NCBI GenBank assembly: GCA_016223085.1
Contig: JACRPS010000010.1
Location: 1 to 64,000 of the forward strand
Direction of reading: 5' to 3'
DNA length: 64,000 nt
Source: Chloroflexota bacterium
GTDB lineage: Bacteria > Chloroflexota > Anaerolineae > Aggregatilineales > Phototrophicaceae
Shown: one piece after another, positions 33,381-40,686 of the stretch
Layout of the letters: each line of letters starts with the position of its first letter
How positions within the stretch are numbered: the stretch's first letter is position 1
The notes under the pieces: model-generated
The model's database searches: none
What the model was told of the DNA's origin: nothing
The model's input: the letters and a program-made list of their open reading frames with translations, nothing else
Program-made: the position numbers and the translations under genes

Positions 33381-34295
33381 TTACGTCAGCAGGTTGGCTT
33401 TCACCTGGTCAAAAATGGCATCGTCCACGCCGGCCCGGTCGCGCAGGTAAGCGCGCACCGAGCCATATTTGGTTATCAGATAGTCTAACGCCGCTTTCAG
33501 CGTTTTAGGGTCGGCGGTCAGCATCGGGTGCATATCGGCGGCGGAAATGCCGAGAATAGCCAGCCGTTGCACGGCCTGCTGCGCGTAGCGGTAAAAGTGG
33601 TCGTAGTAGCGATTGCTGAGCGTGTAATCCGCAATCACGGTTTCTTCCGGCACACCCAGCGCCAGCAGCAGGATGGCCGCTGCCAGACCGGCGCGATCCT
33701 TGCCCGCCGTGCAGTGGATTAAAGCCGGCAGGTTGTTCTCATCGGCCAGCCGCCGGATCACGTCCCCAAAGACCGCCGCGTGCTCGTCTATAATGCGCCG
33801 GTAAATCTCCAGCAGCATGGTGTTAAACCGGCTTTTGTCAAACAGCAGCGCCCGCAGTCGCTGGCGTGAGTCGCCGTCGCGGTCGGCATTAATTGGAATA
33901 CGCGCATAGTCCGCATCCGGCAGCCGGCGGTCAGGCGCGGTACTCACTTCATCGTCGCTGCGCAGGTCGCACACCAGTTTAATCCCCAGTGCTGCCAGTG
34001 TATTCAGATCGCTGTCGGTCAGCGCCGCCAGCGTGCCGGAACGGTACACCCGCCCCCAGCGCACGTAGCGCCCGCTGGTGGTGCGGTAGCCGCCGATGTC
34101 GCGCAGGTTGGCCGCGCCTTCCAGCAGGATAGTGCGGTCGTGCCTGCTGTCCTCGTGCGGCAGCAACTCAGTATCCAGTTCGATGATGAGCGATTCCGGA
34201 GCAGGGTAGGCCGGTTTCTCGCGGCGCACCAGCCGTCGGGTCGTCAGCGCCACGCCCCCCAGCGCCAGCAGCGACAACAACGCGCGTGTTTTCAA
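33381..34295 (-). CDS. tyrosine-protein phosphatase
   Basis: This is a 304-residue protein of the bacterial Y_phosphatase3 type. A short N-terminal hydrophobic stretch (LLSLLALGGVALTT) may anchor it, NLRDIGGY is the family's early motif, and the catalytic Cys loop is IHCTAGKDRAGLAAA. It would remove phosphate from tyrosine residues or phosphoinositide-like substrates. It is followed 4 bases later by comEC, so the two are co-transcribed. Confidence 0.9.
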   Translation of the reverse strand: MKTRALLSLLALGGVALTTRRLVRREKPAYPAPESLIIELDTELLPHEDSRHDRTILLEGAANLRDIGGYRTTSGRYVRWGRVYRSGTLAALTDSDLNTLAALGIKLVCDLRSDDEVSTAPDRRLPDADYARIPINADRDGDSRQRLRALLFDKSRFNTMLLEIYRRIIDEHAAVFGDVIRRLADENNLPALIHCTAGKDRAGLAAAILLLALGVPEETVIADYTLSNRYYDHFYRYAQQAVQRLAILGISAADMHPMLTADPKTLKAALDYLITKYGSVRAYLRDRAGVDDAIFDQVKANLLT

Positions 34296-34385: not shown

Positions 34386-34414
34386 TTGACAGACGCAGAA
34401 TAACGATTTATTGT
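34386..34414 (+). promoter_or_regulatory. sigma-70-type promoter of the LacI-family regulator gene
   Basis: TTGACA (34386-34391) and TATTGT (34409-34414) are 17 bases apart. The predicted start of transcription, near 34421, lies inside the palindromic operator. Confidence 0.7.
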
Positions 34415-34417
34415 GAA

Positions 34418-34433
34418 AGTAACTCGCGTTACT
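34418..34433. promoter_or_regulatory. LacI-type operator
   Basis: AGTAAC-TCGC-GTTACT has perfect 6-base arms around a CG-centred core, as is usual for LacI-family sites. It overlaps the transcript start, so it should mediate autorepression. Confidence 0.65.
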
Positions 34434-34454
34434 AACCCGTGTCAGTCAAAAAAT

Positions 34455-35489
34455 ATGGTTAAGAAAAGACGAGTTACAATGGCTGATGTTGCCAGGGAAG
34501 CGGGCGTTTCGCGCACAACCGTTTCGTTTGTTTTAAACAATGTTGCTGACTCCAATATTCCCGAAGCGACGCGCGAACGGATTCTCCAGGTTGCCCGTGA
34601 ACTGAATTACGTGCCGAATGTGCAGGCGCTGAATCTCGTCACCGGTCAGACGATGATGATCGCGCTGATCGTGCGCCAGACCTCGGAACAGATGTCCATA
34701 GATACGTTCACCGGCGAGTTCATTCGCGGGGTGACGACGGTCATTGAGGCGCAGAATTACCATCTGCTGGTTCATGCCGCGGAACCGGACGCGCCGGAAA
34801 GCACCTATGGCAAGCTGGTGCGCACGCGCAAGGTGGACGGACTGCTGGTGACGTCGCCGTTAGTGAACGACCCGGAAGTGCGCCTGCTGCACGACGAGGG
34901 CACGCCGATTGTCCTCAATGGTTCGACCGATGCCGACGACATCCCCAGCGTGGATGTGGACAACCGGCAGGGCGCGTACACGGCGGTGCGCCATCTGATT
35001 AATATCGGCCACCGGCGCATCGGCCACATCAGCAACGCGCCGTTTTCCTACCGTTCCAGTTCCGACCGGCTGGAAGGCTACCGGCAGGCGCTGGCGGAAG
35101 CCGGCATTCTGTACGATCTGAACCTGGTGATGCAGGGGGAGTTTACACCCTCCAGCGGCTTCCGTCCGATGTTGGCCCTGCTGGACAGCCCCGAACCGCC
35201 GACTGCCGTATTTGTCGGCAGCGATACAGTCGCCTTTGGCGCGCTGGAAGCGGTACGCCATCGGGGCTACCGCGTGCCGGAAGACGTGTCCATCATCGGC
35301 TTTGACGACATCGTGTTTTCGCAGTACACGCTGCCGCCGCTAACAACCATTCGCGTCCCGGCCTACCGGCTGGGCTACAGCGCCGGTGAGCTGATCCTGA
35401 AAATTATCCAGGGCGAGAAGCTGCCCGATTACCGCGTGGTGTTACCTACCGAGCTGGTGATTCGCCGCTCGACGGTAAAACGACCGTAG
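34455..35489 (+). CDS. LacI-family transcriptional regulator of the alpha-glucoside module
   Basis: This is a 344-residue regulator. The N-terminal HTH reads VTMADVAREAGVSRTTVSFV and the hinge helix has VPNVQALNL. The sugar-binding domain follows, with VDGLLVTSPL, GHRRIGHIS and SIIGFDDI. It likely senses a maltose/trehalose-type sugar and controls the transport genes that follow in the same direction. ATG 34455 is chosen because the promoter and operator lie upstream; a GTG at 34413 would fall inside the promoter. Confidence 0.92.
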   Translation: MVKKRRVTMADVAREAGVSRTTVSFVLNNVADSNIPEATRERILQVARELNYVPNVQALNLVTGQTMMIALIVRQTSEQMSIDTFTGEFIRGVTTVIEAQNYHLLVHAAEPDAPESTYGKLVRTRKVDGLLVTSPLVNDPEVRLLHDEGTPIVLNGSTDADDIPSVDVDNRQGAYTAVRHLINIGHRRIGHISNAPFSYRSSSDRLEGYRQALAEAGILYDLNLVMQGEFTPSSGFRPMLALLDSPEPPTAVFVGSDTVAFGALEAVRHRGYRVPEDVSIIGFDDIVFSQYTLPPLTTIRVPAYRLGYSAGELILKIIQGEKLPDYRVVLPTELVIRRSTVKRP

Positions 35490-35538: not shown

Positions 35539-36837
35539 ATGTTAAAACGTCTTTCCCTTTTAGTCGTCGTCCTGCTGCTGATCGCTGGCAGCGCCTACGC
35601 CCAGGATGCCAGCAACATTGACTGCATGGGCAGCGAAGGGTCAACGCTGTCTATCATGGCGTCGTGGGCGGGCGAGGAAGAAGAAACCTTCCGCAGCATC
35701 ATCGGCCCGCTGCTGGAAGCCTGCAATATCACCCTGAGCTACGAGGGCACGCGCGATATGAACACGCTGCTGCCGACCCGCGTGGAAGGCGGCAACCCGC
35801 CGGACGTGGCGATCTTTGCCAATCCCGGCGCGCTTAAATCGTTTGCGGACAACCTGGTGCCGCTGACTGACCTCGGCGTGAACGCGGACAGCTATTCCGA
35901 GAGCTGGCAGACATTGGGCACGGCCAACGGCAACTGGCTCGGCCTGCCGCTGAAGACCGACGTTAAGTCGCTGGTGTGGTATAGCCCGGTGGCGTTTGAA
36001 GCCGCTGGCTACGAAGTGCCGACCACCTGGGACGAGTTTGTGGCACTGATGGACCAGATGGTCGCCGATGGCGGCCCGGCGCCGCTGGCGATGGGTTTTG
36101 AAAGCGGCGGCGCGACCGGCTGGACGGCCACCGACTTCGTGCAGGACATCCTGCTGCGGACGCAGGGCGCGGATTACACTAATGGCCTGGCTACCGGCGA
36201 AACGGCCTGGAACGACCAGGGTGTGATTGATGCCTGGACGACGTATGTGGACTGGGTCAACAAGTACAACGTGGGCGGCGCGGACAATGCTACCACCACC
36301 CCGTTTGCCGACGCCATTCTGATGCCGTTCCAGGACCCGCCGCAGGCGTGGATGGTAAAGCAGTCCGGCTTCGCGGGCAGCGCGGTTATCCAGCCGAACT
36401 TCCCGGATTACGTCTATGGCGAGGACTTCGCCTTCTTCGTGCTGCCCGGTCAGGGTGAAGAAGCCCCACCGATGCAGGTGAGCGGCGACATCCTTGGCGT
36501 GTTTAACAATACACCGGCCACGCAGGCGCTGGTGGCGTACCTGTCGAGCGCCGAAGGCGCGACGGCCTGGGCGGCCAGCGGCTTTGACCTGACGCCCAGC
36601 AGCGCAGTGGATATGTCGGCCTATGAAAATCCGATCTCGGCAGACAAAGCGGCAACATTGGCCGAAGCCAGCGGCGTCAGTTACGACGTGGGCGACCTCG
36701 TGTCCCCGGCGGTCGGCCAGGCGGAATTTGACGGCATTACGGCGGCGGTTGGCGGTGGGGATGTGACGGAAATTCTCAACAACATCCAATCGTTGATGGA
36801 ACAGAACATGGAAGCTACCCCGGAAGCATCGGGCTAA
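35539..36837 (+). CDS. aglE: alpha-glucoside ABC transporter substrate-binding protein (AglE type)
   Basis: This 432-residue extracellular binding protein belongs to the SBP_bac_1 family. The signal peptide ends at SAYAQD with no lipobox Cys at that site. The body has the AglE-like pattern (GGNPPDVAIFANPG, LVWYSPVAFEAAGYEVP, GWTATDFVQDILL). It delivers maltose-, sucrose- or trehalose-like sugars to the two permeases that follow. GGAGGAG lies before the ATG. A hairpin (35485-35510) sits between this gene and the regulator gene. Confidence 0.9.
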   Translation: MLKRLSLLVVVLLLIAGSAYAQDASNIDCMGSEGSTLSIMASWAGEEEETFRSIIGPLLEACNITLSYEGTRDMNTLLPTRVEGGNPPDVAIFANPGALKSFADNLVPLTDLGVNADSYSESWQTLGTANGNWLGLPLKTDVKSLVWYSPVAFEAAGYEVPTTWDEFVALMDQMVADGGPAPLAMGFESGGATGWTATDFVQDILLRTQGADYTNGLATGETAWNDQGVIDAWTTYVDWVNKYNVGGADNATTTPFADAILMPFQDPPQAWMVKQSGFAGSAVIQPNFPDYVYGEDFAFFVLPGQGEEAPPMQVSGDILGVFNNTPATQALVAYLSSAEGATAWAASGFDLTPSSAVDMSAYENPISADKAATLAEASGVSYDVGDLVSPAVGQAEFDGITAAVGGGDVTEILNNIQSLMEQNMEATPEASG

Positions 36838-36985: not shown

Positions 36986-37891
36986 ATGCGAACCCCGATG
37001 ATTATGCGGCAGGGGCGCTGGACGCCCTGGCTGTATCTTGCCCCTGCCATTGTGATTTTGACGATTTACGTACTGTATCCCGCCCTGCGCACGGCGCTGT
37101 TCAGCTTCCAGAACGCCAACAGCACGGCGCTGGCGACTGTGAACTGCCGCGCCGGCGAACCCTGCTGGGGGCTGCTGGAAAACTACCGTCAGGCGCTGTC
37201 GTCGCAGCAGGGGCAGGTGGCGCTGCGAAATACCGCCCTGTGGCTGCTGGTGATCGTGCCCGGCACGGCGCTGCTGGGGCTGCTGTTCGCCGTGCTGACC
37301 GACCGTGTGAGTTACGAGCCGCTGGCAAAGGCGATCATCTTTATGCCGATGGCGATCTCGTTTGTCGGTGCGGCGATCATCTGGCGCTTTGTGTACAACC
37401 CCGACCCCAACCTGGGCATCCTGAACGCGCTGGTGGTCGCGTTAGGCGGCGAACCCCGCGCCTGGCTGGCAAGTCCGCCGCCGGTCAATACGCTCCTGCT
37501 GACCATCGTCGGCCTGTGGATGTGGACCGGCTTTACCATGACGCTGCTGTCCGCCGCGCTCAAGGCGATCCCGACGGACATCATCGAAGCGGCGCGGGTG
37601 GACGGCGCGAACGAGTGGCAGTTGTTCGTGCGGATCATGCTGCCGCTACTGGCGCCGACGATTGCCGTTGTCATGACCACGATGACGATTAACACGCTCA
37701 AGATGTTTGACATTGTGTGGGTGATGAAGGGCATCCAGACGGACGTGATCGCCACCCGCATGGTGTCGGAACTGTACCTGAACCGTAACAACGGATTGGC
37801 CTCCGCCTATGCGGTGATTTTGATCGTCCTGATTATCCCTGTCACCATCTACAACATCCGGCGGTTCAGCGCGGAGGAGGCCGAAAAATGA
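36986..37891 (+). CDS. aglF: alpha-glucoside ABC transporter permease (AglF type)
   Basis: This 301-residue inner-membrane permease belongs to the MalF-like BPD_transp_1 family. It has six helices, and the EAA loop for the ATPase is IIEAARVDGANEWQLFVRIMLPLL. The first outer loop contains VNCRAGEPCWG, a Cys pair that could form a disulphide. ATG 36986 follows AGGGGA. It overlaps the next permease gene by 4 bases. No ATPase gene is present, so a shared MsmK-type subunit is needed. Confidence 0.9.
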   Translation: MRTPMIMRQGRWTPWLYLAPAIVILTIYVLYPALRTALFSFQNANSTALATVNCRAGEPCWGLLENYRQALSSQQGQVALRNTALWLLVIVPGTALLGLLFAVLTDRVSYEPLAKAIIFMPMAISFVGAAIIWRFVYNPDPNLGILNALVVALGGEPRAWLASPPPVNTLLLTIVGLWMWTGFTMTLLSAALKAIPTDIIEAARVDGANEWQLFVRIMLPLLAPTIAVVMTTMTINTLKMFDIVWVMKGIQTDVIATRMVSELYLNRNNGLASAYAVILIVLIIPVTIYNIRRFSAEEAEK

Positions 37892-39084
37892 ACCGAGATC
37901 GTTTGGCCCAGTTTTTTAACCGTTTCCCGGTCAATCTGGCCGTCATCCTGCTGTGCGCGCTGTGGCTGTTGCCGACCTTCGGCCTGTTCATTACGTCCTT
38001 CCGCCCGCAGGAGGCGGTGAATAGCACCGGCTGGTGGACGGCGCTGGCTTCGACCCGCCCCGGTCGCGGGGCATACCAGCAGTTTTGCGCGGAGTGTCAT
38101 GGCGACTCGTATAATGCGCTGCCCAACGCCGACCTGACCAACCCGGACCTGATCGGTACCTTCCGCCGGTCTCTGAATCTGGCGGCCACCTTCAACCGCG
38201 AATATAACGGTGTAATCCACATCCCGGAAGATAAACGTCCGAACCCGCAGGAAACAGCCGATATTCTCGACCACCTGCGCATTGTCTCCGGCCTGCAGGC
38301 GCCGCCGGCACAATTTACCATTGCCAACTACAAGGACGTACTGGTGGGTTACGATGCTCGCGGCGGTACGTATGATGAAGCCTGCGCCGCAGATGGCGCG
38401 ACCGGCACACGTACCTGTGATTTCCTGACGGATGCCACCGCACCGAACGCTGTCTTCCGGGGGATGCTCAACAGCTTCGCAGTAGCCGTGCCGTCCACGA
38501 TCATCCCCATTCTGATCGCCGGTTTTGCCGCCTACGCGCTGTCGTGGATGGACTTCAATGGGCGGCGGGTGATGTTCGCGCTGCTGGTCGGGCTGCAAAT
38601 TATCCCGCTGCAAATGGTGCTGGTGCCCATTTATCGCATGTATACGGACCTCGGCCTCAACGGTACGTTCCTGGGGGTGTGGCTGTTCCATACCGGCTTC
38701 GGCCTGCCGTATGCCATCTATTTAATTCGCAACTTCGTCGGGCGGCTGCCGTCCGAACTGTTTGAGTCGGCCTATCTCGATGGCGCGAATCATTTTACTG
38801 TTTTCCGCCGGATTGTGCTGCCGCTGGCGCTGCCGGCGATTGGCGCGCTGGCGATTTTCCAGTTTTTGTGGATCTGGAACGATCTGCTGGTAGCGCTTAT
38901 CTTCCTGGGCAACAGCGCGCCGGTACTGACCTACCAGCTCAGCCAGATGGTGGACTCGCTCGGCGGCGGTTGGCATCGGATGACGGCAGCGGCATTTGTC
39001 AGTATCATCGTGCCGCTGATTATCTTTTTCGCATTCCAGCGGTTCTTCGTGCGGGGACTGCTGGCCGGTTCAGTCAAAGGATAA
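37888..39084 (+). CDS. aglG: alpha-glucoside ABC permease (AglG type) with inserted cytochrome c-like domain
   Basis: This is a 398-residue protein. Residues 16-37 form the first membrane helix. Residues about 55-137 are an insert starting GRGAYQQFCAECHGDSY, with CxxCH at 67-71, and ending PQETADILDHLRIVSGL, the usual pattern of a small class I cytochrome c domain. No Met ligand stands before that helix; His111 in GVIHIPED is the candidate. From residue 143 (FTIANYKDVL) the normal AglG permease resumes, with an EAA loop at FESAYLDGANHFTVFRRIVL and five helices. The insert would lie outside the membrane, where c-type haem is attached. It follows aglF and precedes treS. Confidence 0.9.
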   Translation: MNRDRLAQFFNRFPVNLAVILLCALWLLPTFGLFITSFRPQEAVNSTGWWTALASTRPGRGAYQQFCAECHGDSYNALPNADLTNPDLIGTFRRSLNLAATFNREYNGVIHIPEDKRPNPQETADILDHLRIVSGLQAPPAQFTIANYKDVLVGYDARGGTYDEACAADGATGTRTCDFLTDATAPNAVFRGMLNSFAVAVPSTIIPILIAGFAAYALSWMDFNGRRVMFALLVGLQIIPLQMVLVPIYRMYTDLGLNGTFLGVWLFHTGFGLPYAIYLIRNFVGRLPSELFESAYLDGANHFTVFRRIVLPLALPAIGALAIFQFLWIWNDLLVALIFLGNSAPVLTYQLSQMVDSLGGGWHRMTAAAFVSIIVPLIIFFAFQRFFVRGLLAGSVKG

Positions 39085-39093
39085 AGACAGGAC

Positions 39094-40686
<1,593 letters not shown>

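Follow-up and report, generated by a model that had tools for sequence, protein, structure and literature searches.

We analyzed a window of 64,000 nucleotides from a bacterium of the Chloroflexota and found that it encodes a sugar permease with a cytochrome c domain inside it. The protein (398 amino acids; 37888..39084, + strand) is a MalG/SugB-type subunit of an ABC importer, and the insert, which follows membrane helix 1, is confirmed as a class I cytochrome c domain. Both parts belong to known families. An earlier note on this DNA knew of no described ABC importer permease of this kind, and we likewise found no earlier account, in the open-access literature, of an ABC sugar permease that bears a haem.

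The gene is a single uninterrupted frame that runs through membrane helix 1, a GWW motif, an insert of about 90 residues, the sequence FTIANYKDVL, and the permease core. Membrane helix 1 (residues 15–36; 37930..37995, + strand, as are all the parts of this protein) is a helix in the AlphaFold2 model. The cytochrome c domain spans residues 51–142 (38038..38313) and has a C-terminal helix at residues 120–134 (PQETADILDHL; 38245..38289, as seen in the model of the domain). The permease core (residues 189–398; 38452..39081) was identified by its similarity to SugB and MalG and by Pfam: the 398-residue protein matches BPD_transp_1 with an E value of 1.7e-13 and 51.1 bits, against a cut-off of 26.4. 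By both sequence and structure, the nearest solved relative is SugB (from LpqY-SugABC), followed by MalG. Directly before membrane helix 2 lie Cys166 and Cys177 (38383..38418), which are invariant in our alignment A1 and possibly form a disulphide; this pair is also present in sister permeases that lack the cytochrome domain. In the known MalG-type topology, helix 1 is followed by an extracellular loop, and haem c is attached on that side of the membrane as well. The model of the whole protein had low confidence (pLDDT 66), so it is not used here to say how the domain sits against the membrane.

In the window's protein, the insert matches the Pfam families Cytochrome_CBB3 (PF13442; E = 2.6e-4) and Cytochrom_C (PF00034; E = 5.6e-3), and both matches are under the Pfam cut-off for this member of the family (21.7 bits versus a cut-off of 27). 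A homologue with tandem domains reaches 33.7 bits, which is above the cut-off, and several members of the family exceeded it in our genome searches. Furthermore, all 50 of the homologous inserts that we aligned match Cytochrome_CBB3 (best E = 3.1e-8). When modeled alone, the domain gave a confident prediction (pLDDT of 91.3 and pTM of 0.81). A Foldseek search with this model placed cytochrome c-type proteins on top, with weak E values (0.03 at best, with a probability of 0.98). With VIA-align, the best 50 structural matches were all class I cytochrome c domains; cytochrome c6 came first (Z = 7.7), and its engineered M58H mutant (4h0k) came second (Z = 7.3). Z scores under 8 are weak if taken alone, and here they agree with the sequence evidence. 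Across six pairs of close relatives, dN/dS was 0.12–0.26 for the insert and 0–0.09 for the permease core, and judging from these ratios, purifying selection is acting on the insert. In sum, the earlier note's reading of this region as a cytochrome-like domain within one frame of a MalG/AglG permease was borne out by the frame, by the Pfam matches of the homologous inserts, by the predicted fold, and by the ligands described below.

The haem attachment motif, CAECH, is at residues 67–71 (38086..38100). Across the 50 inserts (alignment A2), the mean column identity is just 48%, and the only invariant columns are C67, C70, H71, G72, and H111. We considered whether the CxxCH might have arisen by chance, and rejected this because a haem-binding CxxCHG and one further histidine are the sole invariant columns. 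In class I cytochromes c, the sixth ligand of the haem iron is usually methionine, with histidine in some members. At the sixth-ligand column of these inserts, methionine is absent and histidine is invariant. This residue, His111 (38218..38220), lies 40 residues from the histidine of CxxCH in 45 of the inserts and 41–43 residues from it in the other five. In Nostoc cytochrome c6, the distance from His18, which binds the haem, to Met58 is also 40 residues. Since H111 occupies the position of Met58, we predict a bis-His haem, in agreement with the earlier suggestion that a methionine ligand is missing and that His111 may take its place. Ligation by both H71 and H111 is quite probable, and it is very likely that a haem would be bound covalently at C67 and C70. 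A bis-His haem of this kind is expected to have a low potential.

Searches for the insert covered 61 genomes of relatives, a set of 84,980 species genomes, and, from the class of the host, 396 genomes. They turned up over 50 permeases that share it, at about 48–82% full-length identity to the window's protein. In the survey of the class, 26 of the 396 genomes have full-length matches of at least 624 bits, and the next score was 476 bits. All of the carriers that we saw belong to the Chloroflexota. None of the 80 best loci from the scan of 84,980 genomes lies outside this phylum, which leaves room for rarer cases, and in a sample of 400 genomes from the phylum, every match fell within one class, the same one as in the class survey. 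The carriers include cultured strains (Pelolinea and Levilinea) and finished chromosomes, such as the complete chromosome of Pelolinea submarina. The earlier note had raised the concern that the region might be an assembly chimera whose close homologues lack the insert. This explanation, or a frameshift artefact, now has a vanishingly small chance of being correct: the insert occurs independently in dozens of genomes, some of them complete, and the flanking sequences are collinear.

In one relative, the loop holds a pair of cytochrome c domains in tandem (L016:598-2190 and L167:6785-8368). Each of these has a CxxCH and a later histidine, so from its sequence this protein is a predicted two-haem permease.

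Not every operon of this type has the domain. In four sister operons (L148, L149, L150, and L151; also L168 and L169), the flanks are collinear and the domain is missing between GWW and RFTxxNY, which implies that the permease can dispense with it; these operons offer a natural set for comparison. A quick tree built from the permease core places 53 carriers and four domain-less sisters in one well-supported group (SH-aLRT of 99). Two of the four sisters nest among the carriers in this quick tree, where the support for their position is weak to moderate, and a history of one gain and two losses is plausible. The earlier note stated that ordinary AglG proteins have a short loop after helix 1. 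This is correct for some AglG-type permeases, but others, in Rhizobium and in relatives from the host's order, have a different stretch of roughly 60–100 residues at this site. Such variety in the loop between helices 1 and 2 suggests that it is a site of domain exchange. (Unrelated stretches of 60–100 residues were seen in L068, L078, L084, L020, and L030.)

The host genome (6.0 Mb, 98% complete) has its nearest named relatives in the Chloroflexota, including an Aggregatilineales MAG at 81% identity. In the window, the permease belongs to an operon-like row of genes on the + strand. The row begins with a LacI-family regulator (34413..35489; NCBIfam LacI-type matches of up to 227 bits; syntenic in relatives; its start codon is uncertain). 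Next come an extracellular sugar-binding protein (35539..36837; a weak match to SBP_bac_11, and syntenic at 42–80% identity in relatives) and a MalF-type partner permease (36986..37891; BPD_transp_1 at 8.5e-16, and 49–92% identity in relatives). The stop codon of the MalF-type gene overlaps the start codon of the cytochrome-bearing gene (ATGA). The last gene in the row encodes a trehalose synthase (maltose alpha-D-glucosyltransferase, family GH13; 39094..40686; TIGR02456 at 803 bits, cut-off 678). This order is conserved in relatives, and the flanks are collinear. We saw no gene for a cognate ATPase adjoining the operon, and the importer is likely to be served by a shared MsmK-type ATPase that is encoded elsewhere.

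Two other features of the locus are worth describing. A tyrosine-phosphatase-like gene (33381-34295, - strand) adjoins the operon, and a gene of this kind is also beside it in L040 and L042. The MalF-type partner has a conserved pair of cysteines, C-x5-CWG, in its first outer loop. We considered a tie between this pair and the haem and rejected it, as the pair is also found in operons without the cytochrome domain.

The neighboring genes suggest what the importer carries. In most carriers, the gene 3' of the operon is a trehalose synthase. In its place, one locus has a trehalase-like gene (L060:7707-8876) and another has a GH65 enzyme (L044:7194-9536), both of which fit the use of trehalose or maltose. 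Given these neighbors and SugB as the nearest solved permease, the cargo is probably trehalose or maltose.

Another check that had been proposed was for cytochrome c maturation (Ccm) genes, and the host genome has them. CcmE is present, and a cluster encodes CcmF and CcmH along with a thioredoxin-like protein, a dihaem cytochrome, and, in the position of CcmA, an ABC ATPase. A second Cytochrom_C_asm protein, of the size of CcmC, is encoded just downstream. Among the 26 carriers from the class survey, 24 have CcmE and another (G082) has other assembly genes, for a total of 25 with Ccm. The remaining carrier, in which no Ccm genes were found, is a genome that is 73% complete (G123). However, CcmE is present in 330 of the 396 genomes of the class (83%), so the co-occurrence of the domain with Ccm supports haem attachment but is weak as proof of it. 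As for the domain-less sisters, two (G372 and G439) retain Ccm genes, while two (G423 and G437) lack CcmE; G423 still has a match to PF01578.

P. submarina (the L051 genome, G061) has a set of Ccm genes at L170:5533-12054: a fusion of CcmA and CcmB, CcmC, CcmE, and a fusion of CcmF with a redoxin. The sole match to PF13442 and to PF00034 in this genome is the cytochrome-bearing permease, a claim that is limited to these class I families, and NrfA was not found in this genome. Most other carriers have further cytochromes c, and many have 5–24 matches to Cytochrome_CBB3. That P. submarina keeps a full Ccm set without another class I match or NrfA speaks for a sensing role rather than for one step in a c-type electron chain.

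A haem in a loop on the outer face of the membrane could be an electron carrier, a sensor of redox state or gas, or a structural element. Our best single guess is a sensor, because of P. submarina's lack of class I partners, the predicted bis-His ligation, and the existence of known haem-c sensors. In this proposal, a trehalose/maltose importer has a MalG/SugB-type subunit whose first extracellular loop, between helices 1 and 2, holds the class I cytochrome c domain on the same side as the docking binding protein. The Ccm machinery would attach one haem to C67 and C70 at the outer face, and H71 and H111 would serve as axial ligands. A change in the redox state of the haem, or a gas such as NO that displaces H111, would act as the signal. 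This would alter docking or the conformational cycle, and sugar uptake would be adjusted. We give this redox- or gas-responsive sensor, taken as a whole, an even chance of being the correct explanation, and we put a regulatory rather than an electron-carrying role for the domain at about even odds as well. The more specific version, a redox- or NO-gated ABC importer that in P. submarina is the main or the sole client of Ccm, is a tentative proposal that falls somewhat short of even. The protein carries only a permease domain, with no MCP- or kinase-type output domain for signaling (as judged by Pfam), and there is no signaling partner in the operon. The lack of such a partner weighs against the sensor, as do the four sister permeases that have the same type of operon but no cytochrome domain, and the other cytochromes c of most carriers, with which the domain could exchange electrons.

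If the domain were instead an electron-transfer module, it would exchange electrons with extracellular cytochromes or minerals, and the permease would be a mere anchor, or else uptake would be coordinated with respiratory flow. The class I fold, the tandem two-haem version, and the many Cytochrome_CBB3 proteins in other carriers, which are possible exchange partners, all fit this idea. Yet P. submarina keeps the domain and a full Ccm set with no other match to the two class I families and no NrfA, and a permease loop is an odd anchor for an electron carrier, so we consider it improbable. A purely structural role seems only slightly less doubtful: the haem would just stabilize a small domain whose task is to hold the binding protein in position, in place of the loop stretches of other AglG-type permeases. 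Those stretches are unrelated and of similar length, and the sister permeases manage without the domain. But docking should not need a haem, which is costly, or axial ligands that never vary, and beyond these ligands the conservation of the insert is not strong. Lastly, we give very low odds to a CxxCH that arose by chance, or persists as a relic, in a domain free of haem. Although the window's member is below the Pfam cut-off, the ligands are invariant in all 50 inserts, selection seems to maintain the domain, the fold is retained, and Ccm is present.

The closest known systems each share part of this architecture. LpqY-SugABC (SugB; PDB 7cad, 8hps, and 8ja7) has the same permease fold and family, pairs a binding protein with two permeases, and is trehalose-related, but the matched SugB chains have just 257–278 residues and no cytochrome insert, and no ATPase gene was seen beside the operon described here. 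E. coli MalFGK2 (MalG; PDB 2r6g) has the same permease family and core, and its MalG has no haem domain. Cytochrome c6 and other class I cytochromes c (PDB 9krr, 4h0k, and 5mxy) share the fold, the CxxCH, and a sixth-ligand position that lies 40 residues further on. Here, however, a natural histidine replaces the methionine, as in the engineered M58H protein, and the domain sits in a transporter loop instead of being a soluble carrier. Periplasmic sensors with haem c are known, namely DcrA and GSU0582/GSU0935 (PMC8396549), and haem-c Cache domains are NO sensors (PMC12889525). Like the permease proposed here, these are membrane proteins that carry a covalent haem c at their outer face, and they have been proposed to sense redox state or NO; they use a PAS or Cache fold with chemotaxis or another signaling output, in contrast to a class I cytochrome c joined to an ABC permease.

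Control of ABC importers is generally ascribed to substrate, ATP, and regulators in the cytoplasm. A covalent haem at the outer face, if it is truly there, would add a new means of control, and a redox gate, if shown, would define a new class of transporters with their own sensor. The permease may also help to explain why P. submarina, a fermenter in which hardly any class I cytochromes were detected, retains the whole Ccm set. Because the carriers include the cultured Pelolinea and Levilinea, the proposal can be tested now. Anaerolineae abound in sediments, sludge, and digesters, and if our proposal is true, then their feeding on sugars would be linked to redox conditions.
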